Virus record (IMG/VR): IMGVR_UViG_3300020472_001599 | Span: 1 to 45,912 of that record | From: a virus | Length of the DNA: 45,912 nucleotides | Reading direction: 5' to 3' (one strand) | Shown: positions 24,701 through 45,912 of the stretch, piece by piece | Numbering within the stretch: position 1 is the first letter of the stretch | Layout of the letters: each line of letters starts with the position of its first letter | Program-made: the position numbers and the translations under genes | The notes under the pieces: generated by a model | Seen by the model: the letters and a program-made list of their open reading frames with translations, nothing else | What the model was told of the DNA's origin: nothing | The model's database searches: none

Positions 24701-27700
24701 CAAGATTCAACTGAATATAGAACAAAATACTGGGGCACATTATTTAAAGGTGCAAGTATTGATGTGTATGAATGGACAAGAAGTGATGTAGCACCTGATT
24801 CATATGCTGAAAGTGTTGCCGCGGAAAAAGTAATTAATGGTATTCGATTAACAGGTGAAGCATATAAAGAAACAGATACATTTGGTAACGAATTATATTA
24901 TTACACAGAAGTAGATGAATTTGATAGTACAATAGGTGGTAATGTAACATATTATTACTTCTGGGTTAAAAATAAAACTAGTATACCAGAAGGATCATCT
25001 CGTATAACTAGTGTTTTAAACATTGCAAATCTTATTGAATCACCAACTGCTCAAAATGTTAGATGGCTTAATGCAACAGGTAAAGATAGCTTTATTGTTA
25101 GCAACTTACGAGATGATGCAACTGAAAGAACAGTATTACAAATAAGCAATATTAGCAACGAAGATAATACACATACACATTGGATGCCAATGATAGAAAA
25201 TGATACTGCTGTACCAGAGTATTATCATAGACGACTAAAAGATAGTTTACGAGGTAGTAACGAAAACAAAAAGCTAAAAACTTATAAAGGTGAATGGTCA
25301 GATTCTACAACATATACAAAAGGCCAGGTTGTAAGTATAAATGCACCAATTGGAACTATAAAAATTGCTGTAGCTACAAAAGGAGCTACACAAAGATTCT
25401 ACAATAGAGGTTCTGCTAATTGTTTTACAATAAATGGCACTCAAACAGATCCTGGACAAATAATTACATTACAGCGTGGTAAAACGTATGTTATAGATCA
25501 AAATGATTCAACTAACGTGACTCATGCTTTTATATTCAGTCCTAAACTAGATGGTAAACATTCTACAAATCAAGCCTATGTTCAACCAACTGGAGTACGT
25601 TATTTTCTAAATGGTGTAGAATCAACAGTAGCACAATATAATACTGCTATTTCAAGTGGCACTAATACACAAGATAAGAAAATAACATTTAAGCCAGATG
25701 CAAATACGCCAAACACATTATGGTATGGTTGTTTTGCTCATACTATGATGGGCAATGAAATACATATTATTAACGAAGAAAAAGATGAAGCAGTTTCGTA
25801 TCATATGAGTTTGATAGATAGTAACTTAAACTATACTCCACAAGCAAATAGAAGTGCATGGCGTAGAATATATGACGTAACTAATGTAGAAGAAGCTGAA
25901 GAAGAAATTCAAATACCAGAAGAGAAGATGGTACCTGATTTAAATTTACATCCATATGATCGTATAGGTGAAGGCGTTCGTCCTAGTAGAACTTGGTTCT
26001 CATACAAAAATATTAGTAGAAGAGAAATAGTCAATCAAATAAACAATATATTAATTAATACTAATTTGATAGATACTAAGCCAGATTATAAAACACATTT
26101 AGATGTAACAATATCTTCAGGTTCAAAAGATTATAATGTTGTAGACCATTGGGAAAATGTAGATTGGTTTAGTAGTATTTTTGATAGGTTTACACAACCT
26201 AATAGAGAAGTAACAGAAATAACACCATTGCTTACAAGCGGTGATGCAAATCAACTTGCTGGTAACTATGATGGAGAATATATATTAGCCAAGAATGTAT
26301 TACATGTAGATGGTATTAAACGTGATAGTATTTTTAAGTATGATCAAGCCAATGCATCTTGGTTACCTGTTTGGAAAGAAAAAGGTACTATACAACTATT
26401 AGATAGTTTATGGGATCCAGTAACTGGTGCATATGGTTTTGATGTAGCAGGTTTTGATAACGAAGGTTTTGATAATGATCCTATACATGAATTTTCTAAA
26501 ATAATAGACGTGTTTCGTGATAACATATTAAGTAAAGCAGATTATAATAGAGTATGGTTTGCTGGAATATATGATGCTGTTAAGGAAATGCCAAACAACG
26601 AATGGATTAAAAAGTCTACATACTTTGTACCAAAACTCAATAAGCAAGTTAATACAACAAAACGTATTGGATATGACGCTGTACCTATACTAGAAGAATA
26701 CTTAGATAAGAATAAACCTTTTAGTAGTAAGTATAAAGTTAATCCTTCATTATTTCAAGACGAGAAAACTGTTAGCGATCAAGGCTCTGCTGTAATTACA
26801 GAGCATTCACGTAATATGGCAATAACAGAGAAAATGGAAGAACATACAGATAATCAATTCTCTGAAAGACTAGGCGGAACGGCAGTAGTAGCACATTCAC
26901 CATTACCATTTAATGATGTAGATATTGTAAAAACTTTTAATTCCGTGAATCATACTATATCTAGAAACCCAATTATAACAAGTTGGCAACATAGTTCAGG
27001 TAATGTAGTTAGTTCAACAGATGCAATAAGCGAAACTGAACATTTAGTTAATGTTCCAGCAGATGTAGAAAAGGTATCATGGGATGGCAATTATGTATAT
27101 ATAAGAACAAGCGGAATTACAGATGCAACTGGTGGACCAGGTACTACAGTAGCACCAGACACAGAAGGCACAGTAGTAGATCAAAGACCTACAAGTGCTA
27201 CGGAGTTTAATTGGAAAATTAATAGATCACAAACAGTAGCAGGATCTAAACCTCTCAGAGGTGATGGTCCTATAGGCGTATTAACAAATGGTGTAGCAAT
27301 ATTTTCACCGCGAGACTTTGAACAAACAAGTACAGGTAGTATATACTATAGAAACGAAGGCTATCTAAGAAGAAATAGTATGGATGCAAATTTTGGTACA
27401 AGTTGGTCTAGCAAAGGCGACTATGAACCTACAGTTAAAGGATTATACTACCATTATGATATGCCCAATGAATATAGAACACAAGAAGATGCAACTAAAC
27501 ATAGTCCATTAATAGGTTGGGCATTAGATGGATATCCAATTTACGGACAATATGGTTTTACAAATGCAGACGGAACTGGCGCCATACTTAAAATGACAAG
27601 TAGTTATGTTCTTAAAAGTGGTGCAAGAACAGGACTAGGTGCTCCAGCTGGTAATTATGATGGATCTTATACAGCAGATTATACATATGATGGAAGCGGA

Positions 27701-31974: not shown

Positions 31975-32003
31975 TTGACAATTTAGATATATAAGTATAT
32001 AAT
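31975..32003 (+). promoter_or_regulatory. perfect sigma70 promoter of the accessory island
   Basis: TTGACA (31975-31980), exactly 17 bases, TATAAT (31998-32003): both hexamers are full consensus at optimal spacing. The first gene starts at 32031 with AAGGAG at 32019-32024. It separates late structural genes from the accessory island and suggests early transcription by host RNA polymerase. Confidence 0.92.
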
Positions 32004-32030: not shown

Positions 32031-32378
32031 ATGGATGAACGCCTAGAAAAAGCATTAGATTTTGCAAATTACAGAGCTACGATTGCAAATCAAAAAAATA
32101 ATTTAAAAAATCGTATTGCAACATTAAAAGTATGTCATTTTAGTGGTGCTCAATTTACAGCAAATAAAACTAACATTAGTTTTATAAAAGCTATGATTGA
32201 CTTAGGATATGAAGAAGCAGTAATAGAAGATGATAAAGAAAATCCTGTTGAAGTAAAAGATTTACAAGGATTGCTAGATGAACTTACTGGTGCTTATCAT
32301 GCCGCAATGAATGAATTTTTAATTGAAAATACTAAAATTAACAAAGCAAGAGCGTTGAAACAAATAATGGACTGGTAG
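32031..32378 (+). CDS. conserved hypothetical early protein
   Basis: A 115-residue, mostly helical protein directly behind the consensus sigma70 promoter, with AAGGAG seven bases before the ATG. The N-terminus EKALDFANYRATIANQKNNL and a repeated charged-helix pattern resemble small conserved proteins of marine T4-like phages. No catalytic motif is visible. Strong transcription and translation signals suggest a high early level, which would fit a host takeover or regulatory role, but this is only inferred. The next gene starts with GTG on the last base of its stop. Confidence 0.7.
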   Translation: MDERLEKALDFANYRATIANQKNNLKNRIATLKVCHFSGAQFTANKTNISFIKAMIDLGYEEAVIEDDKENPVEVKDLQGLLDELTGAYHAAMNEFLIENTKINKARALKQIMDW

Positions 32379-32551
32379 TGGACAAAACAGACATACCAGA
32401 AACAATTATATATGTAGACACAGATAGAGTTTGGTGCATGGGTGAACAAATGGATCACCCCAAAGTATATTATACTGTACCAGATGAAGGTTATGTAGTT
32501 TGTGGTTACTGTGATATAAAATTTGCTAGAAAGAAAAAAGAAGATGAGTAA
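32378..32551 (+). CDS. small zinc-finger protein of the NDUFS6 / zf-CHCC type
   Basis: A 57-residue gene starting with GTG that shares one base with the previous stop (TAGTG) and ends 8 bases into the next gene. The order of ligands, VWCMGEQMDHPKVYY then EGYVVCGYCDIKF, is C20, H27, C42, C45: the CHCC zinc site of the family that includes mitochondrial complex I subunit NDUFS6 and short alphaproteobacterial zinc-finger proteins. A basic tail RKKK follows. The family is common in alphaproteobacteria, which points to acquisition from such a host. Function in the phage is unknown; it could bind host protein or act as a redox/zinc regulator. Confidence 0.75.
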   Translation: MDKTDIPETIIYVDTDRVWCMGEQMDHPKVYYTVPDEGYVVCGYCDIKFARKKKEDE

Positions 32552-33428
32552 AGGCACTTGCTTTATTGCAATTAATAATAAAGAGCTAGACTATATAAAG
32601 TTTGCTATGTTTGCTTCACAACAAATTAAGAAACATTTTAAAGAACATAAACAAACAGCTCTTATTACTACACAACCAGATTATGAGTATTTTACAAGCA
32701 CATATCCTGTAAAGGATATAAAGAGTATATTTGATTATATCGTCATTGATGATCATACGTATACTGATGAAAATATGAGAACGCATTTTGATACTCCATG
32801 GACAGAATTTGATGCACCATTTCATAATAGACAAAAGCATGACATATATTGGATGTCTCCTTTTGATCAAACATTACTGTTAGACATAGATTATATTATA
32901 CAAACTAATCATTTAGAATATATGTTTAACGAAGAAAATACAAGCAACTTACAAATGTTTAATAAAGCAAGATACTTGTGTTACGATAGTGCACCATTTC
33001 CAGAAAGATGGTTACATCCAAATGGCATACCTATGTGGTGGAGTACTGTAATCTACTTTAAAAAGAGTCCTGAAGCAAAAATGTTTTTTGAATTATGGAG
33101 TCATATAGCTGATAACTATGATTATTATAAATTCTTGTATGGCTTTACAGGAACTTTATTTAGAACAGATTTCTGTGTTAGTATTGCATTACATATACTA
33201 AATGGTATGCAACATGGAGATTTTGCAGAACCTATTGTTGGTAGTATGTTAAACATGGATCAAAAAGATGTTATTATCCAAAGTAAATCTCCAGAAAATA
33301 TGCACTTCTTAGCATATAATAGAGATGAACCATGGAAGAATTTATTAGTTCATAATGAAAAATATGATGTACATTGTATGAACAAACGTAATCTTAGTGA
33401 TATTATCACAAGGTATTCAGCGTCATGA
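32544..33428 (+). CDS. glycosyltransferase-like protein (GT-A type), first copy
   Basis: I start at the ATG at 32544 (MSKGTCFIAINNKELDYIKF, overlap of 8 bases with the zinc-finger gene); an ATG at 32523 in the same frame would add only MLERKKK. The 294-residue product has a Rossmann-like N-terminus (TALITTQ), a metal-binding DxD-like motif LLLDIDYII (D114, D116) and an aromatic-rich middle (PMWWSTVIYFKKSPEAKMFF) expected of GT-A glycosyltransferases. Donor and acceptor are unknown. The next gene encodes a similar protein, so these may have arisen by duplication. No transmembrane segment is visible. Confidence 0.6.
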   Translation: MSKGTCFIAINNKELDYIKFAMFASQQIKKHFKEHKQTALITTQPDYEYFTSTYPVKDIKSIFDYIVIDDHTYTDENMRTHFDTPWTEFDAPFHNRQKHDIYWMSPFDQTLLLDIDYIIQTNHLEYMFNEENTSNLQMFNKARYLCYDSAPFPERWLHPNGIPMWWSTVIYFKKSPEAKMFFELWSHIADNYDYYKFLYGFTGTLFRTDFCVSIALHILNGMQHGDFAEPIVGSMLNMDQKDVIIQSKSPENMHFLAYNRDEPWKNLLVHNEKYDVHCMNKRNLSDIITRYSAS

Positions 33429-34270
33429 AACAAACAGTAGAAAAACAAGGTTGGTTAATTAATGGTGGCAATGATGAACAATATTATAATATGGCGGCGG
33501 CAAGTGCAATGCTATTGCGTTTACATCAAGACTTACCTATTGCAGTATGTATAGACAAAATAGATAAATGGCCTAAAAAGTATGAAGGAATAATTGATTA
33601 CATAGTAGAATATCCTTTTGGTGACACCAGTTATAATATGCCACAGACTGTACAATTAAATCAATGGCAGTTTTATCATGTTACACCTTTTTCAGAAAAT
33701 ATTGTAATTGAAGCAGATACTCTTATTCTTAATAATGTTAATTACATAAAATCATTACTAGAGTATAACGATTTATTATTCCCTACACAAATAACAGACT
33801 TTAGAAATATGGTTTATAAAGCACCACATACTCAATTCTTTAAAGAAAGTAGATTGCAATCTGTACATGCAGGCATTTGGCTTTTTAAAGAATGCAAAGA
33901 AGCAGAAGCATATTTTAAGATGTTAGATGTTGTATGTCAAAATTGGCGTGAAGCATTTAAAGAATACTTTAAACCAGAGCATGTACCTGACACTCCTTTA
34001 CTTGATGTATTACATTCTATATCAGCAACAATGTTTGGCGAATACGAAGATATTATAGTAAGAGATTCACAATTATTGCGTTATACACATATGATTAGTC
34101 ATCCAGACGAAAAATGGAATGACATCATGAATATATGGTATACAGATAATTTTAAAATTGATAATTATCGTCAAAATGGCATACTGAAATACACAGAACC
34201 AGATGTTATGTCGGAAAGAGTTTTAAATGGAATCAGAAGACACTATAGAAATACCTATAGAAAAAATTAA
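33425..34270 (+). CDS. glycosyltransferase-like protein, second copy with altered DxD
   Basis: The 281-residue product parallels the preceding one: a short N-terminal strand (GWLINGGNDEQYYNMAAASA), LPIAVCID, a metal-site region ENIVIEADTLILNN (E96-A-D98, in place of D-x-D) and HAGIWLFKECKEAEAYFKML. The ATG at 33425 overlaps the upstream stop by 4 bases (ATGA). The changed first acid may still bind metal, since ExD variants occur in GT-A families, or the protein may have lost activity. Likely partner or paralogue of the first glycosyltransferase-like protein. Function unproven. Confidence 0.5.
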   Translation: MKQTVEKQGWLINGGNDEQYYNMAAASAMLLRLHQDLPIAVCIDKIDKWPKKYEGIIDYIVEYPFGDTSYNMPQTVQLNQWQFYHVTPFSENIVIEADTLILNNVNYIKSLLEYNDLLFPTQITDFRNMVYKAPHTQFFKESRLQSVHAGIWLFKECKEAEAYFKMLDVVCQNWREAFKEYFKPEHVPDTPLLDVLHSISATMFGEYEDIIVRDSQLLRYTHMISHPDEKWNDIMNIWYTDNFKIDNYRQNGILKYTEPDVMSERVLNGIRRHYRNTYRKN

Positions 34271-35180
34271 GCATGATTATTTTGTTTATTATAACAAAGT
34301 AGGCAATATTCAGCAAATATCTAAAGAGAGCATTGCATCAAAATTTGATCATGTAGTTACTAAAAATGAAGATGCTGGTAAAATAATATCAGGACATGTA
34401 AACAAAAACCATTATTGTGTAAACTATAATACAGAAACTGATCAAATTGAGTTTATGCATAAGAAATATGCTGGTAACTTAGCACCCCTCGAGGATTTGT
34501 TATATCAAGTTCCTTTAAAAACTGATTCTATAATAACATCAGATGTTAGTATACAACTTTATCCAAACAGTAATCTTATAACAATAGATATTAATAATCA
34601 AACTAAAAAACGTTTGCTATGGGGCATTAATGCCCATGATATTAAAAACCCACAAGGTTCGCAACTTAATATATACATTACTAAAAGAGATAATCCTGAC
34701 TACTTAATATTACAAGTTGTAATTGATCCAATGGATCTAATAACAAATGAACGAGTAATTGTTGAACTTCCAGCATCAATAACAAGATATGTAGACTATC
34801 AAGACATTTCTATTTTTACACGTAGATTATTTGATTTATATGATTATAAGCTAATAAATCAGTATGTTGATTTTGATCCTAAGGATAAACATAGAATCAA
34901 AATGTCAACTAAAACTAAAGATTGCCACATATATGTAAAAAGAAATAGTAAAGGCAACTTATATATGAAGGCACTAGAAGATATTTACAAACTTTCAGAT
35001 AGAAATCTCTTGCAATTTCATGTAGTAGATGCTACAATAGAAAGAGATGTAGAGAGCAGACTGCTAGATAGTGTGACTGTATCTATAGATGATATAACAA
35101 AAGGAACAGATCTAGATGTCCCTGTTCCTAAAAAGTTTAGATTATTACACAATCTTAGATTAAAAGTAGGACAAGCATAA
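34227..35180 (+). CDS. protein of unknown function in the accessory island
   Basis: The 317-residue product is not one I can place in a family. The start at 34227 overlaps the previous gene by 44 bases; GGAAAGAG eight bases upstream supports it and the next in-frame methionine is far inside. The first 100 residues look alpha/beta (EIPIEKIKHDYFVYYNKVG), followed by beta-rich segments (KRLLWGINAHDI, TRYVDYQDISIFTRRLFDLYDY, CHIYVKRNSKGNLYMKAL). No metal motif, signal peptide or membrane helix is evident. Lying between glycosyltransferase-like genes, it may serve the same pathway or be a structural protein. Confidence 0.6.
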   Translation: MESEDTIEIPIEKIKHDYFVYYNKVGNIQQISKESIASKFDHVVTKNEDAGKIISGHVNKNHYCVNYNTETDQIEFMHKKYAGNLAPLEDLLYQVPLKTDSIITSDVSIQLYPNSNLITIDINNQTKKRLLWGINAHDIKNPQGSQLNIYITKRDNPDYLILQVVIDPMDLITNERVIVELPASITRYVDYQDISIFTRRLFDLYDYKLINQYVDFDPKDKHRIKMSTKTKDCHIYVKRNSKGNLYMKALEDIYKLSDRNLLQFHVVDATIERDVESRLLDSVTVSIDDITKGTDLDVPVPKKFRLLHNLRLKVGQA

Positions 35181-35181
35181 A

Positions 35182-36192
35182 ATGGCAAGAAAAATGAATA
35201 TAAGTAGAGGCATGCAAAGTATAAATGAATTTGATATAGTTTTTATAAGTTATGATGAACCTAACGCTGATGCAAATTATGCACATTTATTAGAAATATG
35301 TCCATGGGCTATGCGTAGTCACGGAGTGTGGGGCAGTGACGCCGCTCATAAGGCCGCGGCCCAGATGTGCGAATCAGATAGATTCATAACAATAGATGCA
35401 GATAATTTAGTACGTCCTGACTTTTTTAATATAGAAGTTGACTTAAAAGCAATAGGCCCACATGATGTAGTAAGCTGGGCAGGAAAGAATACAGTTAATG
35501 GATTAGTATACGGCAACGGCGGAATAAAACTTTGGCCTAAGCATGTAGTAATGCAAATGCGTACACATGAGGCCGCACCAGAAGAAGATGCTAGAGCTCA
35601 AGTTGATTTTTGTTGGAATATTGGATACGTACAAATGAACAACATCTATTGTGATGTTATGAATAACGGATCACCACTACAGGCATGGCGTGCAGGATTT
35701 CGAGAGGGCGTTAAAATGACTTTGGACGGTGGTGATGTTGTTGATCCTAAAAAATTAAAAAATTTAGTACATAGTAAAAATCTAGCTCGTTTGTTTACAT
35801 GGATGAGTGTAGGTGAAGATGCAATAAATGGTATTTGGGCAATGTATGGTGCTAGACAAGGATGCCACATGACAAACATTGCACGTAAAGATTGGGATTG
35901 GAAACTTGTTAGAGATTTTGATTGGTTAACAAAGTTTTTTAATGACGAAGTATTCCCACAGTTTGCAGATGACAATAGTGAAATATGTGTTAACACAGGT
36001 ATGCGTTGGAGTTTAGAAAAAGTAAGAAAAGCTAGTGTAGATTATGGAATAGAAATTAAAAAACATCTTAACTTACCTATTGCTGACTTAGACGTAGATG
36101 GTAGCCGATTCTTTAAAGCAGTTTATACTAATCCAACTAGACTAGAGCCTTTAGTTCGCGAAGATCAAGTGCAATATACAATAGAGGGCTAG
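35182..36192 (+). CDS. putative glycosyltransferase (GT-A type)
   Basis: The 336-residue product starts two bases after the previous stop. Near the N-terminus it has FDIVFISYDEPNADANYAHL and RFITIDADNLVRPDFF (D72-A-D74), a clear DxD context as in family-2-like glycosyltransferases. Downstream GNGGIKLWPKHVV and a histidine/cysteine-containing loop (VDFCWNIGYVQMNN) are consistent with an acceptor site, and AWRAGFREGVKM is conserved-looking. It is more like a classical GT-A enzyme than its two neighbours. Immediately followed by the nucleotidyltransferase-cupin gene (no gap), which suggests use of a nucleotide sugar. Substrate unknown. Confidence 0.65.
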   Translation: MARKMNISRGMQSINEFDIVFISYDEPNADANYAHLLEICPWAMRSHGVWGSDAAHKAAAQMCESDRFITIDADNLVRPDFFNIEVDLKAIGPHDVVSWAGKNTVNGLVYGNGGIKLWPKHVVMQMRTHEAAPEEDARAQVDFCWNIGYVQMNNIYCDVMNNGSPLQAWRAGFREGVKMTLDGGDVVDPKKLKNLVHSKNLARLFTWMSVGEDAINGIWAMYGARQGCHMTNIARKDWDWKLVRDFDWLTKFFNDEVFPQFADDNSEICVNTGMRWSLEKVRKASVDYGIEIKKHLNLPIADLDVDGSRFFKAVYTNPTRLEPLVREDQVQYTIEG

Positions 36193-36963
36193 ATGTATAG
36201 CATAGTACTGGTCTCTGGTGGATTCGATCCATTACATAGTGGACATATTGAGTACTTGCAATCAGCCAGGCAATTAGGTATCAAATTAATAGTTGCATTA
36301 AACAGCGATGAATGGCTGACACGTAAAAAAGGTAGACCGTTTTTACCTTTTAAAGAACGCAAAAAAGTATTAGAAAGTATTAGTGTTGTAGATCAAGTTA
36401 TTGAATTTGACGACAGCAACGATAGTGCTAATGACGCTATACATAAAGTTCTATCAATGTCTAACAATACCACAATATGCTTTGCTAATGGTGGTGATAG
36501 AACAGAATATAATTCTCCTGAATTTAAAACATATGGCAAAGAACCGTTGGTATGGTTTGCATGGAACATAGGTGGTGGTAAATCTAATTCTAGTAGTTGG
36601 ATATTACAAGAATGGAAAGCACCAAAAACAAACAGACCATGGGGATATTATAGAGTAGTACATGAATCCGGGAGAGAAGTTAAAGTGAAAGAATTAATAG
36701 TAGCACCTGGACAAAGATTGTCTATGCAAAAACATAAAGATCGTGGCGAACATTGGTTTGTTGATTCTGGCACAGCTACAGTATATACATTAAATGCTTC
36801 AACTGACGAAGAATTACATGGGGTATATACTAAGCATAAGTCATTGGAAATTCCTGCTGGTATGTGGCACATGCTAGTAAATGAATCTGATGAACCTTTA
36901 AAGTTAGTAGAAATACAATATGGTACTAACTGCAATGAGGAAGATATAGAGCGACGTGACTAA
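36193..36963 (+). CDS. nucleotidyltransferase fused to a mannose-6-phosphate isomerase-type cupin
   Basis: Two domains in 256 residues. Residues 1-140 are a cytidylyltransferase-like domain with GGFDPLHSGH (9-18; H15, H18) and GGGKSNSSSWIL (127-138), close to the RfaE/TagD group that activates sugar or alcohol phosphates. Residues about 148-256 are a type II phosphomannose-isomerase cupin: RPWGYYRVVHESG, APGQRLSMQKHKDRGEHWF (H181, E186), IPAGMWHML (H226). In bacteria this cupin usually follows a GDP-mannose pyrophosphorylase (ManC type), not an RfaE-type domain. The fusion suggests a single protein making or tailoring a nucleotide sugar for the nearby glycosyltransferases. It overlaps the next gene by 8 bases. 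Confidence 0.82.
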   Translation: MYSIVLVSGGFDPLHSGHIEYLQSARQLGIKLIVALNSDEWLTRKKGRPFLPFKERKKVLESISVVDQVIEFDDSNDSANDAIHKVLSMSNNTTICFANGGDRTEYNSPEFKTYGKEPLVWFAWNIGGGKSNSSSWILQEWKAPKTNRPWGYYRVVHESGREVKVKELIVAPGQRLSMQKHKDRGEHWFVDSGTATVYTLNASTDEELHGVYTKHKSLEIPAGMWHMLVNESDEPLKLVEIQYGTNCNEEDIERRD

Positions 36964-38419
36964 GAAAGTAGATGAAACGCAGTTGGATAAGGATCCGCAA
37001 ACTGCGGCCCAGCAAGTTATACCAATGTTAGATGAAATATCGCCTAGCATGTGTATGGCCAAATGGCTATGGACTAGTATACACTTAACTAATGGTACAA
37101 CAAATAGTTGTTTCTTACCTCCTATACATAATATAGAACCAGAAGCCGTACAAAATAATCCTAAAGCATTACACAACACACCAGAGAAAAAAGAACAACG
37201 TGCTATGATGCTTAGAGGTGAAAAGCCTGAAGGTTGTAGCTATTGCTGGAACATTGAAAAAATGGGCAGGGAATTTCTTAGCGATAGACATTATCGTAGT
37301 AGTGAGCCGTGGGCTCAAGAAGGTTGGACAGATGCCTTACAAGCTGGATCAGAAGGTGATGTTGAACCACGTTATATGGAAGTTAATTTTAATCATGCTT
37401 GTAATTTGGCATGTAGTTATTGCTCACCACATTTAAGCAGTAAATGGGCAGAAGATATAGAACAAAATGGACCATATCCTACTATAGTACCACACAATAG
37501 CATAGACTATTTTAAACAAATAAGACAATATCCTATACCTAATAGAGAACATAATCCGTATGTAGAAGCATTTTGGAAGTGGTGGCCAGAGTTATATCCA
37601 AAGTTGGAAAACTTTAGAATGACCGGTGGTGAGCCACTTATGGATAAAAATACTTTTAAAGTTTTAGATCATATTATAGCAAACCCACGTGATAATTTAG
37701 AAGTAGCTGTTACTAGTAATTGTAGTGTACCTCCTAAGTTATGGAATAACTTTGTTGATAAAGTTAGTTACATAAGTGAATTTAAAATGTTAAAGCGTTT
37801 TAGATTATTTGTTAGTGTAGATGGCTGGGGTGACCAAGCAGAGTATATGCGACACGGATTAGACTTTGAACGCATGATGGATAATGTAAATAATTATCTA
37901 GCCAAAGTAGATGAAGGATTAGTTACATTTATTGTAACATTTAATTTACTAAGTTTACCTAGCATACAGAAGTTAATGGAAGGAATATTAAGATTACAAC
38001 GTATACATAATGTCAAGCGTTTAAGAAAAGAAGCAGACGGCAGTTTAGAACGTTATGGTTATCATAGAGTATTTGTAGATACACCAATGCTACGTTATCC
38101 ACTGTGGCAAAGTTTACAATTAGCAAAACCAGAACATTATCATTACGCTGATGAATGTTTAGAATTTATGAAAGCAAACCCAGACGAAGGTAGGAAAAGT
38201 CGTTGGGTAGGATTTAAACCACATCAAATTGAAAGATTTGATCGAAGTATAGAATTTATGAAACAAGGATTTGATGACGAAAAACAAAGAGTAGAAGCAG
38301 AAGAAAATTTTATAAGATTTTTTGCAACACACGATTATCGCAGAAAAACAAATTTTGTCAAAACTTTTCCTGAGTTTGAAGAAACATGGAACAAATGGAA
38401 GGCCGAGTACAATGTATAA
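36956..38419 (+). CDS. radical SAM protein A with N-terminal twitch/SPASM-like domain
   Basis: GTG start overlapping the previous stop by 8 bases (GTGACTAA). The 487-residue product has an N-terminal auxiliary cysteine set, C33-x13-G47-x4-C52 and C94-x2-C97 (CSYCW), followed by the radical SAM site C149-x3-C153-x2-C156 (CNLACSYC) and SAM-binding GGEP at 224-227. The auxiliary motif C-x13-G-x4-C precedes the core, the reverse of the usual C-terminal SPASM/twitch arrangement; this order is known in the family called twitch-domain radical SAM (N-terminal twitch). Such enzymes use a 5'-deoxyadenosyl radical, often on peptides. Substrate unknown. It is the first of five tandem relatives and most like protein B. 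Confidence 0.88.
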   Translation: MTKKVDETQLDKDPQTAAQQVIPMLDEISPSMCMAKWLWTSIHLTNGTTNSCFLPPIHNIEPEAVQNNPKALHNTPEKKEQRAMMLRGEKPEGCSYCWNIEKMGREFLSDRHYRSSEPWAQEGWTDALQAGSEGDVEPRYMEVNFNHACNLACSYCSPHLSSKWAEDIEQNGPYPTIVPHNSIDYFKQIRQYPIPNREHNPYVEAFWKWWPELYPKLENFRMTGGEPLMDKNTFKVLDHIIANPRDNLEVAVTSNCSVPPKLWNNFVDKVSYISEFKMLKRFRLFVSVDGWGDQAEYMRHGLDFERMMDNVNNYLAKVDEGLVTFIVTFNLLSLPSIQKLMEGILRLQRIHNVKRLRKEADGSLERYGYHRVFVDTPMLRYPLWQSLQLAKPEHYHYADECLEFMKANPDEGRKSRWVGFKPHQIERFDRSIEFMKQGFDDEKQRVEAEENFIRFFATHDYRRKTNFVKTFPEFEETWNKWKAEYNV

Positions 38420-40094
38420 GAATGTAGATTATGCTATAGAAAGAGATAACATGCGTAAAAAGTATGGTTGTGATACTATGTGTACAGCCAAATTCTTTAC
38501 TAGTACAATCTATTTACAAAGTGGTCAAACACATAGTTGTTACCATCCGTTGCCACATCAAATACCTCTTAATGAACTTAAAGATAATCCAAGTGCATTA
38601 CACAATACTAAGCACAAAATTGAACGCAGACGCCAAATGCTTATGGGCGAAAAGCCTGAAGAATGCAACTACTGTTGGCGTGTAGAAGCACTAGAAAATG
38701 AGTTGGTTATAAGTGATAGAATTATTAAAAGTAAAAATGAACTTCTACTTACACCAGACGCACATGAAAAGATACTTGAAAATGGATGGGATCACAATTA
38801 CAGACCCACATACTTAGAAATTAGTTTTGGTAACGAATGTAACATGCGTTGTGCATATTGTCACCCCAAGGCAAGTTCAGCCTGGATGAAAGAAATGGAT
38901 TTACATGGTCCGTTTGAAAATGCAGAACACTTGCAAGTATTACACGAAAAAATTTATCCTGAAGATGATAATCCCTATGTAGAAGCATTTTGGGAATGGT
39001 GGCCGTATTTGCGAAAAACATTAAAAGTGTTGCGTATCACCGGAGGCGAACCTTTATTGCAACAAAACTTTTGGAAGTTCTTAGAAAAGCTAAAGAAAAC
39101 AGATGAATGTAAAAATATGGTAGTTCAAGTTAATACTAACTTTAATGTTAAACCTAAGTTAACAAAACGTTTTGTAGAAACAATGAATCAGATACTTAAC
39201 GAAAACAGAATAATGAAATTTTCAATATACACTAGCGTAGAAAGCTGGGGAGAACGTGCAACATATACAAGAAATGGTTTAGACCTTGATAACTTTGAAC
39301 AAAACTTACACATTGTAATGAAAGGATTAGCTTCTCATGGTGCTAAAGTATTTACTGGTGTTACCATAATGAATACTTTTAATATTATGTGTGTTACAAG
39401 CTATATAGAGTTTCTTAAGAAAGTATTAGAGTGGAGGAAAGAATTACACAATGGACAGGATTGGCCTAAAGTGTTGTTTGACATTCCACATTGTACAGAA
39501 CCAAATCATTGGACACTTGCAGGTTTGCCAGATCGTTACGATGAATATTTTGGAATAACAACTGCATTTATGGATGCACACCGTTGGAAAAATAATTGGC
39601 AAAATTATCCAAAAGATTTTCATGATCATGCATATTTTAATTATTTCACTGATGAAGAATTCGCCGCATGGAATCGTGTAGTTGCAGTTTGGGAAGATAT
39701 TAAAAAACAAAGAGCTTCATTGAACCCTGATCATCATTTACAACCTAGACAGGTAGATGATGCACGTAGAAACTGGATATTGTTTATTGACGCAACCGAT
39801 AAAAGACGCAAAACTAGATTTAAAGCAATATTTCCAGAAATGGCAGATTATTATGATTTATGTTCTACTATGAGAAACATAGAAGATATAGAATACAATG
39901 GTGATATTAAAAAAGAATTAATGTCAACAGGTGTAGTTGAATTTCATTGGGACGATGATTTTGTTTGGCATTACCCAGCATTAGCACAAACTTTAATCAA
40001 TCATAGAAAAGCTAATAACTTGCCTACTATAATGTTTGATAAAGATAAGGAGGTTGCAAGATTTGGCGACAACTGGCAAATTAAAGGAGAATAA
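38412..40094 (+). CDS. radical SAM protein B with N-terminal twitch/SPASM-like domain
   Basis: I start at the ATG at 38412 (MYKNVDYAIERDN), which overlaps the previous stop by 8 bases (ATGTATAA); an in-frame ATG at 38322 would sit 98 bases inside gene A. The 560-residue product has auxiliary cysteines C24-x13-G38-x4-C43 and C85-x2-C88 (CNYCW), the core C143-x3-C147-x2-C150 (CNMRCAYC) and GGEP at 211-214. N-terminal blocks (KDNPSALHNT, GEKPEECNYCW) match protein A closely, so the pair likely comes from duplication. The C-terminal 200 residues are longer than in its relatives, with no recognised motif. Substrate unknown. Confidence 0.88.
   Translation: MYKNVDYAIERDNMRKKYGCDTMCTAKFFTSTIYLQSGQTHSCYHPLPHQIPLNELKDNPSALHNTKHKIERRRQMLMGEKPEECNYCWRVEALENELVISDRIIKSKNELLLTPDAHEKILENGWDHNYRPTYLEISFGNECNMRCAYCHPKASSAWMKEMDLHGPFENAEHLQVLHEKIYPEDDNPYVEAFWEWWPYLRKTLKVLRITGGEPLLQQNFWKFLEKLKKTDECKNMVVQVNTNFNVKPKLTKRFVETMNQILNENRIMKFSIYTSVESWGERATYTRNGLDLDNFEQNLHIVMKGLASHGAKVFTGVTIMNTFNIMCVTSYIEFLKKVLEWRKELHNGQDWPKVLFDIPHCTEPNHWTLAGLPDRYDEYFGITTAFMDAHRWKNNWQNYPKDFHDHAYFNYFTDEEFAAWNRVVAVWEDIKKQRASLNPDHHLQPRQVDDARRNWILFIDATDKRRKTRFKAIFPEMADYYDLCSTMRNIEDIEYNGDIKKELMSTGVVEFHWDDDFVWHYPALAQTLINHRKANNLPTIMFDKDKEVARFGDNWQIKGE
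40047..40053 (+). promoter_or_regulatory. perfect Shine-Dalgarno AAGGAGG deciding a TTG start
   Basis: AAGGAGG lies inside the end of gene B, 9 bases before an in-frame TTG at 40063. No in-frame ATG precedes the first auxiliary cysteine of the next protein, so this site favours TTG 40063 as start of radical SAM protein C. Confidence 0.6.
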
Positions 40095-41328
40095 AGAGTA
40101 TGCATTAAAGGAAAGCAAACACTTTTGTATGGCTCCGTGGGTAACAATGCATGCCTGGCCTAGTGGCGAGGCATATCCCTGTTGTGCTATTCAAACACAA
40201 GGTGTTATGAATGGTAAAGGCATGGCTAATCTTCATACATCTTCTTTTGAAGAAGCATGGAACAGCGAAGTCATGCGTAACTTACGTAAATCTACCCTTA
40301 ACGATAAATTTAATCCTATATGTAAAAAGTGTGTTGAAAGTGAACAAACTGGAAATATATGGACACTAAGAACTAGTCTTAATAATAACTTTGGTGACAA
40401 GCATTGGGAAAGAGTATTAGCAACTAATGAAGACTATACACATGACGATCCTAGAATGTTATATTGGGATATTAGATTTAACAACTTATGTAATATGAAA
40501 TGCAGAAGCTGTTCGCCTGAGTTTAGTACACAATGGCATGCTGATCATATAGAAATGTATGGTGATTCTGGTTGGCCCATGTACAAAGGTTTACCTAAAA
40601 ACTTTTGGACAGACATATTGCCAAGGATTACAGAAGTTGAGTATGCATACTTTGCCGGTGGTGAGCCACTTATAACCGAAGAACATTATAAAATGTTACA
40701 AACATGGATAGATGCAAAGAACACAGATATTAAAATAGATTACACAACAAACTTCAGTAAAATGCATTTAGGCAATAAACATGCATTTGATTATTGGAAC
40801 AAACTGCCCAATGTAAATGTAGGTGCAAGTCTTGATGGCTCATGGGCTAGAGGCGAATACATACGTGCTGGCACAGTATGGCAAACTATAGTTGACAATA
40901 GGCGTGATATGATAAAAGAATGTCCTGATACAAACTTCTTTATATCACCTACTATTAGTTTATATAATGTATTACATTTACCCGACTTTCATAAGGAATG
41001 GATAGAAGAAGAGCTGATACACCCAGACGCAATTAGTTTGGCAAATACATTGTTTGAACCTGACTATATGAAAGCACAAAACTTACCTGATACTTGGAAG
41101 AAACAAGTAAGAGACAAGTATGAAAAACACATAGAATACCTAAATACAATAGGAGCCCACGATACAAAAAAATGGCAAAACATTATAACATTTGTAGAAC
41201 GTAAAAGAAATAAACCACATCATGTACAACTGTTTATGGATATGAATTTAAGGCTGGACAAAATACGAAAAGAAAATTTTCATGATACATTTCCAGAGCT
41301 AGTAGGGATAGAAGATGCAACTAGATAA
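40063..41328 (+). CDS. radical SAM protein C with N-terminal twitch/SPASM-like domain
   Basis: The best start is TTG at 40063, 9 bases after AAGGAGG and in frame; an earlier TTG at 40036 has no ribosome site, and the first in-frame ATG would cut off the first auxiliary cysteine. That gives 421 residues. Auxiliary cysteines: C22-x12-G35-x4-C40-C41 (CMAPW...PCC) and C87-x2-C90 (CKKC); core C143-x3-C147-x2-C150 (CNMKCRSC) and GGEP near 199-202. SPEFSTQWH after the core and LSLYNVLHLPDF-like SLYNVLHLPDF further on are shared with protein D, its closest relative here. The gene overlaps B by 32 bases. Substrate unknown. Confidence 0.85.
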   Translation: MATTGKLKENKEYALKESKHFCMAPWVTMHAWPSGEAYPCCAIQTQGVMNGKGMANLHTSSFEEAWNSEVMRNLRKSTLNDKFNPICKKCVESEQTGNIWTLRTSLNNNFGDKHWERVLATNEDYTHDDPRMLYWDIRFNNLCNMKCRSCSPEFSTQWHADHIEMYGDSGWPMYKGLPKNFWTDILPRITEVEYAYFAGGEPLITEEHYKMLQTWIDAKNTDIKIDYTTNFSKMHLGNKHAFDYWNKLPNVNVGASLDGSWARGEYIRAGTVWQTIVDNRRDMIKECPDTNFFISPTISLYNVLHLPDFHKEWIEEELIHPDAISLANTLFEPDYMKAQNLPDTWKKQVRDKYEKHIEYLNTIGAHDTKKWQNIITFVERKRNKPHHVQLFMDMNLRLDKIRKENFHDTFPELVGIEDATR

Positions 41329-42616
41329 AGATTTTCTTTTAAATGAAAGCAAAACATTTTGTCTATCGCCATGGATACACATGCACGTATGGCCCAATGG
41401 TCGTGCGTTTCCTTGTTGTTTAGCTGATCCAAGCAAACCAGACTACGGAAACACAAACATCAGCACACTTAAAGAATTGTGGAACAGTGAAACAGCTCGT
41501 CGACTAAGAAAAAATATGTTAAACAACAAAGCATCTCCTGAATGTACAAGATGTTATAGATTAGAATCAGACGGTGATGCACACACATTACGAAAAAATA
41601 TGAACTACAAATATAGACATCATTATGACAAGGTGTTAACAACCAAAGAAGATGGTTACCATGAAGAAATGAATTTTACATATATGGACTTTCGTTTTAG
41701 TAATCTATGCAACATGTCATGCAGAAGTTGTAGTCCTACATTCAGCACACAGTGGTATGATGATTTTGTAAAACGCTTTGGATCTGTACCAAAGGATTTA
41801 GCAGAAAGAAAGTTTATACAACTTAAAAACAAAAAAGGCTTTGAAGAAGAGCTGTGGCCTTATTTAGACACAGTTGAAGAAGTGTATTGGGCAGGTGGTG
41901 AACCAATGATCACTGATACACATTGGAAGATTATGAATCATTGGGTAGAAACAGGACATGCTGAAAACATTTCAATTCTGTACACCACAAACTTTTCTCA
42001 ACTGGAATATAAAAGACAAAACATACTTGACCTATGGCCCAAATTTAAAAATGTTACAGTTAGTGCCAGTTTAGATGGTATGGGTTCACATGCTGAATTT
42101 ATACGCAAAGGAACTGTGTGGTCAGACATTGAAGCAAACAGACGATTAATGATAGAACGCACACCAGAAATAGAATTTGATATATGCCCAACTGTGAGTT
42201 TGATGAATGTGTTACATCTGCCAGACTTCATTGAAGATTGGACACGCAAAGGATTAATCAAACCTGGTAATGTGCGTATAAACAATCTATTAGATCCGGA
42301 TTATTTTTGCACACAAATTTTACCTATTGAATACAAACAGCGAGTCACAAAACGCTGGAAAGAACTGTTGGTATGGGTAGGATCTCTAGATAACTTTGAT
42401 GATTCAAAATGGCCAGGTTCAGAATTTTTAACAGCATGTAATGGTTTAATTAGATTCATGAACAAAGAACTACCCGAAGAAGATTGCGTTAAACATTTGA
42501 AACAAACTAAGTTAGAATTTGATGGATGGGATCAAGTTAGAAATGAAAAGTGGCACGAAGCTATACCAGAACTACAGGATGTACTCATAGCACCCAGAAT
42601 TTGGCAGGACATTTAG
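41315..42616 (+). CDS. radical SAM protein D with N-terminal twitch/SPASM-like domain
   Basis: The 433-residue product overlaps C by 14 bases. Auxiliary cysteines are C16-x12-G29-x4-C34-C35 (CLSPW...PCC) and C77-x2-C80 (CTRC); the core is C132-x3-C136-x2-C139 (CNMSCRSC); AGGEPMI follows. Shared blocks with protein C (LKELWNSETARRLRK versus FEEAWNSEVMRNLRK; SPTFSTQWYDD; SLMNVLHLPDF) show that the two are recent paralogues, although the DNA is diverged. All catalytic cysteines are present, so it is likely active. Confidence 0.88.
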   Translation: MQLDKDFLLNESKTFCLSPWIHMHVWPNGRAFPCCLADPSKPDYGNTNISTLKELWNSETARRLRKNMLNNKASPECTRCYRLESDGDAHTLRKNMNYKYRHHYDKVLTTKEDGYHEEMNFTYMDFRFSNLCNMSCRSCSPTFSTQWYDDFVKRFGSVPKDLAERKFIQLKNKKGFEEELWPYLDTVEEVYWAGGEPMITDTHWKIMNHWVETGHAENISILYTTNFSQLEYKRQNILDLWPKFKNVTVSASLDGMGSHAEFIRKGTVWSDIEANRRLMIERTPEIEFDICPTVSLMNVLHLPDFIEDWTRKGLIKPGNVRINNLLDPDYFCTQILPIEYKQRVTKRWKELLVWVGSLDNFDDSKWPGSEFLTACNGLIRFMNKELPEEDCVKHLKQTKLEFDGWDQVRNEKWHEAIPELQDVLIAPRIWQDI

Positions 42617-43924
42617 ATGGCAATGAGTAAAACATATTGCTTGTATCCTTTTGTAAATTTAAACAGCAACACAGAAGGTAGTGTCAAGCTATGTTGTAGC
42701 ATTAATGAAAATATACATGCTACTGACAAAGACGGGCGTGAGTTGAACTTTGGCAATAATAGTGTGGAAGAAATATGGAACTCAGATTACATGACAACCA
42801 TACGCAAACAGTTACTCAACGGAGAAAGACCTGAAGCATGTAATGTGTGTTGGAACTTGGAAGATCAAGGACTACGTAGTAGTAGGCAAAGTGCATTTGC
42901 AGAATTAAAAGATCGAGGCTTGTATGCAAAAGACTATCAAGATTCTAATCCACCAATGCCACAAAGTTTAGAATTACGTTTAGGTAATTTTTGTAACTTG
43001 CGTTGTAATAGCTGTTGGAGTTTAAGCAGTGATAGAATCTATGATGAACGTAAACGTATATTAAAAAATGAATGTAGTACAAATAATAATAGTATGCCGG
43101 AATGGCTTACTAACGAATGGAATAATGAGATTACATTAGCCAGTCAAGCAAATTGGCTATGGTGGGAAAATGAAGAGTTTGTAACAAGCATAAAGAAAGT
43201 TGCTCCTACACTAAAACGATTATATCTAACAGGTGGCGAGCCAACTTTAATTAAACGTAATACTGAAATTATGCAAATAATTTTAGATAGTGGTAATGTA
43301 GATTGTTACGTTGCACTTACTACAAACTTAACTAATTGGGACGATAACTTTTTTAATACAATGTCGCAATTTAAAAATGGAGAGATACAGGTTAGTATTG
43401 ATGATGTAAGAGAAAAAAACGAGTACATACGTTTTCCTACTAAGTGGCGAAAGATAGAAGATAACTTAGCTAAAATTACTGTCACATTCCCTCAAAGCTG
43501 GATGATTAAACATTATACAGTATATCAAACATATAATTATAATTCTCCATCTCAAATATTAGATTGGTTACATCATTATAGATCGGGGTTTAATTATGAT
43601 AGAGGAAGAGTTTATATATGGAGCCCTATTATTTTAGACCACCCAACATATTTAAATGTTAGAATAATTCCTTTAGAAGTTAGAAGAGAATATGCACATT
43701 ATCTAAGACAATATCAGCCTCCAATGAAAATTAAACAACTATGGTACAGAGCAGGTATAGAACAAATTTGTACACTATTAGAAAATGTAGAAGAACTAAA
43801 CAATGCTGACATGTATAGAAAACAATTTATAGAATATTCTAATTTACTAGACAAGCATAGAAAAAATGATAAGAAATGGTATGAACTATTTGATGAGTTA
43901 GCAAGAAGTTTAAAGTATGAATAA
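42617..43924 (+). CDS. radical SAM protein E with N-terminal twitch/SPASM-like domain
   Basis: The ATG follows the stop of D directly. In 435 residues the auxiliary cysteines are C8-x12-G21-x4-C26-C27 and C75-x2-C78 (CNVCW), the core is C126-x3-C130-x2-C133 (CNLRCNSC), and LTGGEPTLI follows. It has the double-cysteine CC of proteins C and D but the CxxCW of A and B, so it is a third branch of the set. FGNNSVEEIWNSDYM matches the EExWNS helix common to this family. The start of the next gene overlaps its stop by 8 bases (ATGAATAA). Substrate unknown. Confidence 0.88.
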   Translation: MAMSKTYCLYPFVNLNSNTEGSVKLCCSINENIHATDKDGRELNFGNNSVEEIWNSDYMTTIRKQLLNGERPEACNVCWNLEDQGLRSSRQSAFAELKDRGLYAKDYQDSNPPMPQSLELRLGNFCNLRCNSCWSLSSDRIYDERKRILKNECSTNNNSMPEWLTNEWNNEITLASQANWLWWENEEFVTSIKKVAPTLKRLYLTGGEPTLIKRNTEIMQIILDSGNVDCYVALTTNLTNWDDNFFNTMSQFKNGEIQVSIDDVREKNEYIRFPTKWRKIEDNLAKITVTFPQSWMIKHYTVYQTYNYNSPSQILDWLHHYRSGFNYDRGRVYIWSPIILDHPTYLNVRIIPLEVRREYAHYLRQYQPPMKIKQLWYRAGIEQICTLLENVEELNNADMYRKQFIEYSNLLDKHRKNDKKWYELFDELARSLKYE

Positions 43925-45912
43925 AGAATCAGACGAAACTTATATACCAGATCGCAGTACTGCTACTCAAATAGTAATGGCACAGTACAGCAAAGGACAG
44001 CAAAAAGGTTTGCAAGATGTTGTTATTGATTATGATTTTAATCGCAATACTACACTTGCTCTTGTAATGTGTCCGGAATGGGATCCAGGGTTCCCTCATT
44101 ATAGCATTGCTAAGTTGGCAGGTGTAGCAAAAACAGCAGGTTACAAAACAAAAACATATGATTTAAATGTTGAAGCATTTCATGATTATGAAAAAAACCA
44201 GTGGGCCACTGGTTGGGAGCCATGGCATGGTCCTAGAGATTGGCATTGGATTGGTGAACAGTATTGGAAAGATTTACATGAATATGTAAAGCCTGTATTA
44301 GATAAAGCAATAACTGACATTGTTAAATTTAATCCAACATACATAGGGTTTAGTTTATACTATTGTAATAAAGAACCTACAGATTATATGATTAAAAAAA
44401 TTAAAGAGTTAGCACCATGGATAGAAGTAATAGTAGGTGGTCCTCAAACACACTATAGTTATTTTGAGCCAGAAGATTGGTATGACATTGTTGTTAATGG
44501 CGAAGGCGAACAAGCATTGCTTAATATATTAAATGCTAAAGAAATGAAATCTCAATTTGATTTCGCTGAAACAAAGAACAATGCAAAAGTAATCAGACAA
44601 GATGATAATGTACGATTTAGTTTAAACACCTTACCATTTCCCGACTATAGTGATATGCCAATGGAAAAATATTTCATTGGAGACGGTGCTTTATGTGCAA
44701 TTAGTAGAGGCTGTGTTGCTAAGTGTACATTTTGTGAAGAAACTCATTTTTACAAATATAGGCAACGTACAGCAGTTAGTACATTAGAAGAAGTTAGACA
44801 CATGTACCATACCTATGGCACTCGTATATTTTATTTTGTTGATAGTTTAGTAAATGGTAACTTAAAAGAACTTCGAGCTTTTGTAGAAGGCGTTAAAGCA
44901 GAAGGCATGGGCGACATTAAATGGTCTGGCTATTGCAGACATGATGGGCGTATGAATTTAGAATACTTACAGGCACTTAGAGATGGTGGCTGTGAAGTGC
45001 TTAACTATGGAACCGAATCAGGAAGTCAAGCTGTAATAGACTTAATGGATAAAAAAGTAACATTACCTGAAATGGAAGCTAATATGAGAGATGGTAAAAA
45101 GGTAGGCATTCTAAACATGACCAATTGGATTGTAGGTTATCCAAATGAAACATATAAAGACTTTGAAGATACACTTACATTTATATGGCGTATGAGGCAT
45201 CAAAATTTACATAATATATCACAAGGCACAGGATTTAGTGTAGGTGTAGATACTATTGTTGGACAAAACCTAGATAGATTTGGTATAGAACAATGGTGGT
45301 ATTATGATCATTGGATTAAAAAGGATCAGACCGGCAGTATTGTACATAAACTTATTAAAATGAAAACCTTTTCTATATATACTGATTTAGTATCTAATTG
45401 GACTGTAGCAGGTGGAGGTACTGGAATAGAAGGTGGAGTTCCACAAACTCCTAGGAGACCTAATCTTGCTCACCGTCATTACACTATAAAATTTGATGAT
45501 CCAGAATTACAAAAAGAAATCGAATATGATTATGATGACTTTGATTATAATATTATTAAGCCCGGCATTAGTAATTTTGCAGACAGTTTAGTAAATGAAA
45601 TATGGCCGTTCTTACGTATTGTATGGAGGGGCCGTGGAGGCTATCAACTAGTATTAAAGTTTGTTAAGGAATGGGAATACGAAGAATGGGGAGCAAGAAA
45701 TGCGGCCCCATTAAATGCCGAATACTATTTTACTATAAATGAAGCTGGTGAATGGAAAGCTGATTTTTGGTGGCATTATGCCCAAACAGATACAGATCAT
45801 CATTATGATGATGAAAAACCTCATAACAATGGCTCCGATTGGGTTGATACAGTAGGACCTGTATATGCAGTTATGAATTTCTTTAGTAACAATAGTGCTT
45901 CAGTTAAAAGGG
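43917..45912 (+). CDS. B12-binding-type radical SAM protein (partial, runs off the window)
   Basis: Open from the ATG at 43917 to the window end, at least 665 residues, with no stop. Residues about 45-200 look like a cobalamin-binding domain: LALVMCPEWDPGFPHYSIAK, AGYKTKTYDLN, PTYIGFSLYYCN, VIVGGPQTHYS, DIVVNGEGEQALLNIL. The base-off motif DxHxxG is absent, as in several B12 radical SAM enzymes. The radical SAM site is C266-x3-C270-x2-C273 (CVAKCTFC), followed by FYFVDSLVNGN, NYGTESGSQAVIDLM and WIVGYPNETYKDF, typical of this class. Members do methylation, ring or sulfur chemistry; the reaction here is unknown. It overlaps protein E by 8 bases. Confidence 0.85.
   Translation, partial: MNKESDETYIPDRSTATQIVMAQYSKGQQKGLQDVVIDYDFNRNTTLALVMCPEWDPGFPHYSIAKLAGVAKTAGYKTKTYDLNVEAFHDYEKNQWATGWEPWHGPRDWHWIGEQYWKDLHEYVKPVLDKAITDIVKFNPTYIGFSLYYCNKEPTDYMIKKIKELAPWIEVIVGGPQTHYSYFEPEDWYDIVVNGEGEQALLNILNAKEMKSQFDFAETKNNAKVIRQDDNVRFSLNTLPFPDYSDMPMEKYFIGDGALCAISRGCVAKCTFCEETHFYKYRQRTAVSTLEEVRHMYHTYGTRIFYFVDSLVNGNLKELRAFVEGVKAEGMGDIKWSGYCRHDGRMNLEYLQALRDGGCEVLNYGTESGSQAVIDLMDKKVTLPEMEANMRDGKKVGILNMTNWIVGYPNETYKDFEDTLTFIWRMRHQNLHNISQGTGFSVGVDTIVGQNLDRFGIEQWWYYDHWIKKDQTGSIVHKLIKMKTFSIYTDLVSNWTVAGGGTGIEGGVPQTPRRPNLAHRHYTIKFDDPELQKEIEYDYDDFDYNIIKPGISNFADSLVNEIWPFLRIVWRGRGGYQLVLKFVKEWEYEEWGARNAAPLNAEYYFTINEAGEWKADFWWHYAQTDTDHHYDDEKPHNNGSDWVDTVGPVYAVMNFFSNNSASVKR

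Follow-up and report, generated by a model that had tools for sequence, protein, structure and literature searches.

Radical SAM enzymes carry out chemistry that is within reach of few other enzymes. That marine T4-like phages can carry several radical SAM genes was already reported in publications of 2017 and 2020. The T4-like marine viral genome TARA_ERS488813_N000010 contains 12 of these genes together with an A-type Fe-S carrier (PMC5332604), while pelagimyophages, which are also T4-like and marine, carry radical SAM cassettes with O-chain glycosyltransferases in the tail-fibre region of their host-recognition cluster, and an alteration of the surface was proposed for these glycosyltransferases (PMC7029224). 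Phages from the Tasman Sea are enriched in radical SAM genes and glycosyltransferases (PMC7150976). In the excerpts available of the two former papers, the first reads its radical SAM set as Fe-S metabolism only, without gene-neighbourhood analysis, and the second mentions radical SAM genes only in passing, without subfamilies, operon order, a GT10-like partner, a promoter or cellular counterparts. In the open-licence literature, we found no description of a conserved cassette with a glycosyltransferase neighbour, a promoter and a Bdellovibrionota counterpart. Therefore, the view of an earlier note on this DNA, that the modification system may be undescribed, has to be narrowed.

The DNA analysed here (the window) is a virus record of 45,912 bp, which is classed as linear and is therefore probably a fragment. 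Judging from the literature parallels, the contig would be marine. It contains the T4-type genes gp46, gp47, gp55, gp53, gp25 and gp6; the closest cultured-phage counterpart of the gp6 baseplate protein is just 38% identical. Beside the tail and baseplate genes of this T4-like genome, in the location that characterises glycan islands of host-recognition clusters, lies an island that runs from position 31975 to beyond 45912 (Table 1). We give an even chance to the interpretation that it encodes a phage glycan-tailoring pathway, of putative chemistry and substrate.

The radical SAM array and the start of the island

Table 1. Features of the island in the window
Feature	Position	Strand	Evidence and remarks
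sigma70-consensus promoter (TTGACA-N17-TATAAT), from which the island operon is proposed to start	31975..32003	+	sole perfect 12/12 site in the window
115-aa protein, conserved first island gene (family c29)	32031..32378	+	no PHROG match
57-aa Cys/His ORF (C-x6-H-x13-C-x2-C)	32378..32551	+	CHCC zinc finger likeness by eye
Putative GT8-like glycosyltransferase (family c30; LLLDIDYII motif)	32544..33428	+	no Pfam match; hhalign
Putative GT8-like glycosyltransferase (position of family c74)	33425..34270	+	no Pfam match; hhalign
317-aa protein (position of family c73)	34227..35180	+	no Pfam or PHROG match
DADN-motif protein, conserved, perhaps a GT-A enzyme (family c3)	35182..36192	+	kept in 6/14 contigs
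Nucleotidyltransferase (HldE-C-like) and mannose-6-phosphate-isomerase-type cupin fusion	36193..36963	+	PF01467 6e-13, PF01050 3e-24, TIGR02199 1e-19
N-twitch radical SAM 1 (family c11)	36956..38419	+	NF033640 336.7 bits
N-twitch radical SAM 2 (family c4)	38412..40094	+	NF033640 254.9 bits; dN/dS 0.16 vs G001
N-twitch radical SAM 3 (family c0; start codon uncertain)	40063..41328	+	NF033640 355.8 bits; dN/dS 0.065 vs G001
N-twitch radical SAM 4 (family c0)	41315..42616	+	NF033640 369.8 bits; AF2 pLDDT 94; dN/dS 0.15 vs G001
N-twitch radical SAM 5 (family c1)	42617..43924	+	NF033640 300.3 bits; dN/dS 0.12 vs G001
B12-type radical SAM protein (family c5), cut by contig end	43917..45911	+	PF04055 3.6e-14; PF02310 30.2 bits; 3' end open

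The earlier note had described an array of six radical SAM genes, and the six ORFs were all found on the plus strand close to where it had placed them. The products of five consecutive genes (36956-43924) score between 254.9 and 369.8 bits (E 1e-75 to 1e-110) against the N-terminal-twitch (N-twitch) radical SAM model NF033640, whose curated cut-off, applied to the whole-protein score, is 170 bits. This NCBIfam model carries no functional name past the domain, and the window contains five divergent members in a row. The shared motif set that had been noticed in these genes (C-x12/13-G-x4-C, CxxC, CX3CX2C and GGEP, in this order) is confined to these five among the window's 297 ORFs with a length of 30 aa or more, and the complete set was absent from all 10,000 shuffled versions. 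In all five proteins, a four-Cys auxiliary motif lies N-terminal to CX3CX2C and GGE. The sixth gene is recognised as radical SAM by PF04055, and its presumed B12-binding part scores just below the PF02310 cut-off (32.1 bits). Its product measures 665 aa up to the end of the window, as compared to 725 aa in a relative; against named equivalogs such as ApyD, BchE and PhpK it reached at best 103 bits versus the 750 needed, and the full-length relative, with 93 bits, was also below cut-off. Since the window ends where the contig ends, six is a minimum number, and a close relative indeed carries two further radical SAM genes. The genes overlap or abut, as had been claimed, with intergenic gaps from -32 to 0 nt, and the array leaves no precursor-sized gap, in agreement with the claim that no small precursor gene is visible.

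The dN/dS ratios between the window and its relative G001 (Table 1) indicate that the radical SAM genes are maintained by selection; they are under purifying selection. Recent tandem amplification was rejected, as the tree assigns the five proteins to distinct, deeply branching subfamilies and places only radical SAM 3 and 4 close together. A viperin-type defence function was also rejected, considering that the proteins score 20-29 bits against NF038283 (cut-off 180) and just 18-31 bits against the PADLOC pVip models. A search for RNA families gave no match.

The island had been taken to begin at 36956. This was not borne out: it begins at about 31975, at a conserved sigma70-type promoter. A perfect sigma70 site occurs in 10 of 100 shuffled windows, so that its occurrence in the window alone is not significant. 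However, a TTGACA-N16-18-TATANT site was found 19-28 nt upstream of the orthologous first gene in all ten related loci that have this gene, several of which are near-duplicates, with different spacers. A T4 late promoter, sought at the island head of the window as TATAAATA, gave 0 matches, and the site found there is sigma70-like. The T4 late-promoter core ATAAATA is strongly depleted in the window, where it occurs 2 times although about 34 occurrences would be expected. This would suggest early expression of an island that lies inside the structural region. ATAAATA is also depleted in the related contigs. In two phages with another type of cassette (type C; L045 and L046), a sigma70-like promoter with an inverted repeat in the spacer is located 6 nt before the start codon of a c120 gene, and this arrangement looks like an operator.

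Between the promoter and the array, the fusion of a nucleotidyltransferase and a cupin, already recognised in the earlier note, was confirmed by PF01467, PF01050 and PF07883. The genes that had been called glycosyltransferase-like are less clear. When the 32544 and 33425 genes were together compared to the GT8 proteins of Vibrio phage K566, hhalign gave a probability of 39.7% (E 3e-4), and neither gene matched PF01501 (GT8) in Pfam; they are thus only suggestively GT8-like. The DADN protein gave no Pfam or PDB sequence match, and PDB sequence profiles of the GT-like families returned chance matches or none. No homologue of the 57-aa Cys/His ORF was found in the related contigs.

Conservation of the cassette and its glycosyltransferase neighbour

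The cassette, counted where at least three of its genes are present, was found in 55 uncultured viral loci, of which about 23 are distinct at 95% and 9 at 80% identity of one member. The core order is c0, an optional B12 enzyme (c5), c1, c2, and c9 or c31. Junctions are shorter than 10 nt in 254 of 257 cases and none has a gap of 60 nt or more, which leaves no space for a precursor-peptide gene. There are two main contexts. In that of the window (type A), the cassette follows baseplate and tail genes and is preceded by putative glycosyltransferases; in type B it occupies another location and has a GT10-like gene immediately before it. G001 (IMGVR_UViG_3300020417_001527), whose radical SAM 3 is 91% identical to that of the window, shows what may follow: beyond the point at which the window ends there are the two additional radical SAM genes, then a GT10-like protein, a member of the UDP-glucose/GDP-mannose dehydrogenase family, a Methyltransf_13/14 C-methyltransferase, two epimerases, a DegT aminotransferase and a cupin, with a carbamoyltransferase further downstream.

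A GT10-like gene immediately adjoins the cassette in 49 of the 55 loci. Of the six remaining loci, L013 and L063 are truncated by the edge of the locus and L042 reflects a gene missed in ORF calling; the type C cassettes (L045, L046) and L023 have no such neighbour. The GT10-like gene belongs to family c18, upstream, in one context and to family c64, downstream, in the other; the two families are homologous (hhalign 98.3%, E 1e-14). Of the 11 GT10-like genes in the 14 contigs that were analysed in greater depth, 9 lie next to an N-twitch gene, with a P of about 6e-9 that ignores shared ancestry. The best score of c18 and c64 against PF00852 (GT10) is 18.7 bits (E 0.0015), below the gathering score of 23.9. 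The AF2 model of the GT10-like protein (pLDDT 91) has a GT-B fold, and its structure matches in the PDB include OtsA and the fucosyltransferases 7yro and 2nzx. Proximity is weak evidence by itself, considering that glycosyltransferase genes are common in such phages; the conservation of the array with its glycosyltransferase neighbour in two contexts supports a glycan pathway. Single scattered copies without glycosyltransferases, which the earlier note had named as the pattern that would speak against its reading, are not what the related phages show.

A-type Fe-S carrier-like proteins are encoded in five type B contigs (G018:39156, G025:98485, G014:30497, G015:35730 and G029:16232), and such carriers are consistent with the loading of many Fe-S enzymes.

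Relatives in cultured phages and predatory bacteria

Among 50,697 cultured-phage records, matches to the N-twitch proteins searched were limited to Vibrio phages and one marine record, with 22-25% identity among the matches listed. Vibrio phage K566 (L147, 155844-174920), which belongs to a lineage separate from the phages of the window, has two GT8 genes interspersed among four N-twitch radical SAM genes, and its array also holds a weaker GT4-type match. A PagP-like lipid A enzyme is encoded nearby. Radical SAM genes are also carried by the cultured Vibrio phage QD01, which is propagated in the laboratory on V. natriegens Vmax.

The strongest cellular relatives of the N-twitch proteins belong to Bdellovibrionota MAGs. 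They occur in 30 of 114 sampled Bdellovibrionota genomes, in up to 12 copies each; no GT10-like gene was found in the genomes that have them. A 30-kb cluster on a 917-kb contig of a Bdellovibrionia MAG (G030:C1:745468-774898, L133-L135) has, for most of its genes, reciprocal best hits in a second multi-radical-SAM cluster of phages G001, G008 and G020, located at 45-64 kb in G001 (L066, L067). It also contains Asp/Asn-hydroxylase-like, 2OG-oxygenase-like and amidinotransferase-like genes. In the tree, the type C phage genes cluster with members of a Bacteriovoracaceae array, and radical SAM 1 of the window clusters with one of them, which indicates that the subfamilies predate these phage groups. 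A Paenibacillus N-twitch gene (L123:8-19 kb) sits, by eye, amid acyl-carrier, ketosynthase and ligase-like genes, which is another context for the family.

Among characterised enzymes, the nearest solved folds are the peptide-acting CteB and anSME, with the sugar-acting BlsE and DesII lower, and the best PDB sequence match of the N-twitch profile is SkfB. The window proteins share the radical SAM core with the SPASM/twitch carbohydrate enzyme BtrN and with the sugar enzymes BlsE and DesII, and their auxiliary-cluster motif resembles, weakly, the twitch of BtrN (E 0.016). However, their twitch is N-terminal, TM-scores are about 0.3-0.4, and there is no orthology.

Possible function of the island and alternative explanations

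The conserved glycosyltransferase neighbour, the sugar-nucleotide genes of the relatives, the nucleotidyltransferase-cupin fusion of the window and the independent arrangement in the Vibrio phage point to a glycan. In the pathway we propose, an activated sugar would come from the fusion protein and from sugar-nucleotide enzymes such as those encoded downstream in the relatives, the glycosyltransferases would assemble a short glycan, and each radical SAM enzyme, with its SAM cluster and auxiliary twitch cluster, would perform one radical reaction (an oxidation, dehydration or epimerisation) at a specific position of the sugar or glycan. The many distinct radical SAM enzymes suggest several position-specific edits, and the B12 enzyme might add a methyl group. 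The product would most likely be placed early on the surface of the infected cell, resulting in a receptor change or in superinfection exclusion; decoration of the virion is our second choice. The earlier note had left the target among a glycan, a virion protein and a host surface component; its radical SAM calls and phage context were right, and of its three targets the glycan gained support from the conserved neighbour. A single phage pathway may comprise from five to a dozen or more radical SAM enzymes, hence the interest in its product. The gene set, the glycosyltransferase neighbour, the promoter, the counterparts in predatory bacteria and the cultured Vibrio phages now make the target of these enzymes testable.

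What counts against a glycan pathway is that the glycosyltransferase-like genes of the window have no curated family match, and that the examined Bdellovibrionota cluster contains Asp/Asn-hydroxylase-like and amidinotransferase-like genes instead of a GT10-like gene. The peptide-acting nearest folds, the bacterial clusters devoid of GT10-like genes and a substrate deduced from gene context are the reasons why we keep this explanation at an even chance. The same folds, together with the SkfB match, the position of the island directly downstream of structural genes and the Asp/Asn-hydroxylase-like genes that accompany related genes in Bdellovibrionia and in the second phage cluster, would suit enzymes that modify a protein or peptide, either a tail or fibre protein encoded by an adjacent gene or a RiPP with a distant precursor, with the glycosyltransferases acting on the same target or being unrelated. 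We regard this as possible but doubtful, considering that the conserved neighbour is a glycosyltransferase, that neither the array of the window nor any of the 257 junctions has room for a precursor gene beside a maturase, and that the proteins reached none of the RiPP-maturase equivalog cut-offs. A small molecule, diffusible or attached to a lipid, aminoglycoside-like or amino-acid-derived and directed against competitors or the host, is a rather improbable product of the cassette. The DegT aminotransferase, C-methyltransferase and carbamoyltransferase resemble natural-product tailoring genes, and the amidinotransferase-like and 2OG-oxygenase genes of the related second cluster and, by eye, the surroundings of the Paenibacillus homologue fit such a product; but most of these genes are equally ordinary in O-antigen and capsule loci, and the surroundings of the cassette revealed no recognisable gene for release or export.

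Known phage DNA modification involves radical SAM enzymes and glycosyltransferases, and QueD-like and QueE-like genes were seen by eye elsewhere in the relatives. A role in DNA hypermodification is nevertheless very improbable, since the cassette is distant from these genes and its neighbours in the relatives are nucleotide-sugar and glycosyltransferase genes. We attach equally little probability to a support of host iron-sulfur or cofactor metabolism, as proposed for marine phages with Fe-S carriers (PMC5332604): the A-type carrier-like protein of the five related contigs parallels that case, but it would be expected merely for loading many Fe-S enzymes, and no cassette enzyme reached the cut-off of a known cofactor-pathway equivalog.

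Going further than the glycan pathway of the island, T4-like phages and predatory Bdellovibrionota might have entire multi-radical-SAM pathways in common, with almost every gene matched, for a new glycan or glycoconjugate that a series of dedicated N-twitch radical SAM enzymes edits at one position after another. We consider this unlikely; if true, it would represent a new kind of radical-based assembly line for glycans, deployed in attacks on Gram-negative cells.

Outside the island, a homing-endonuclease-like gene lies near gp46 on the minus strand (330-770) and matches PHROG 447, labelled 'NAD synthetase', and PHROG 7363. A single ORF of 4445 aa (15788-29125) is located between the baseplate and fibre-type genes, and contig G008 has a counterpart of 3765 aa in the same place.
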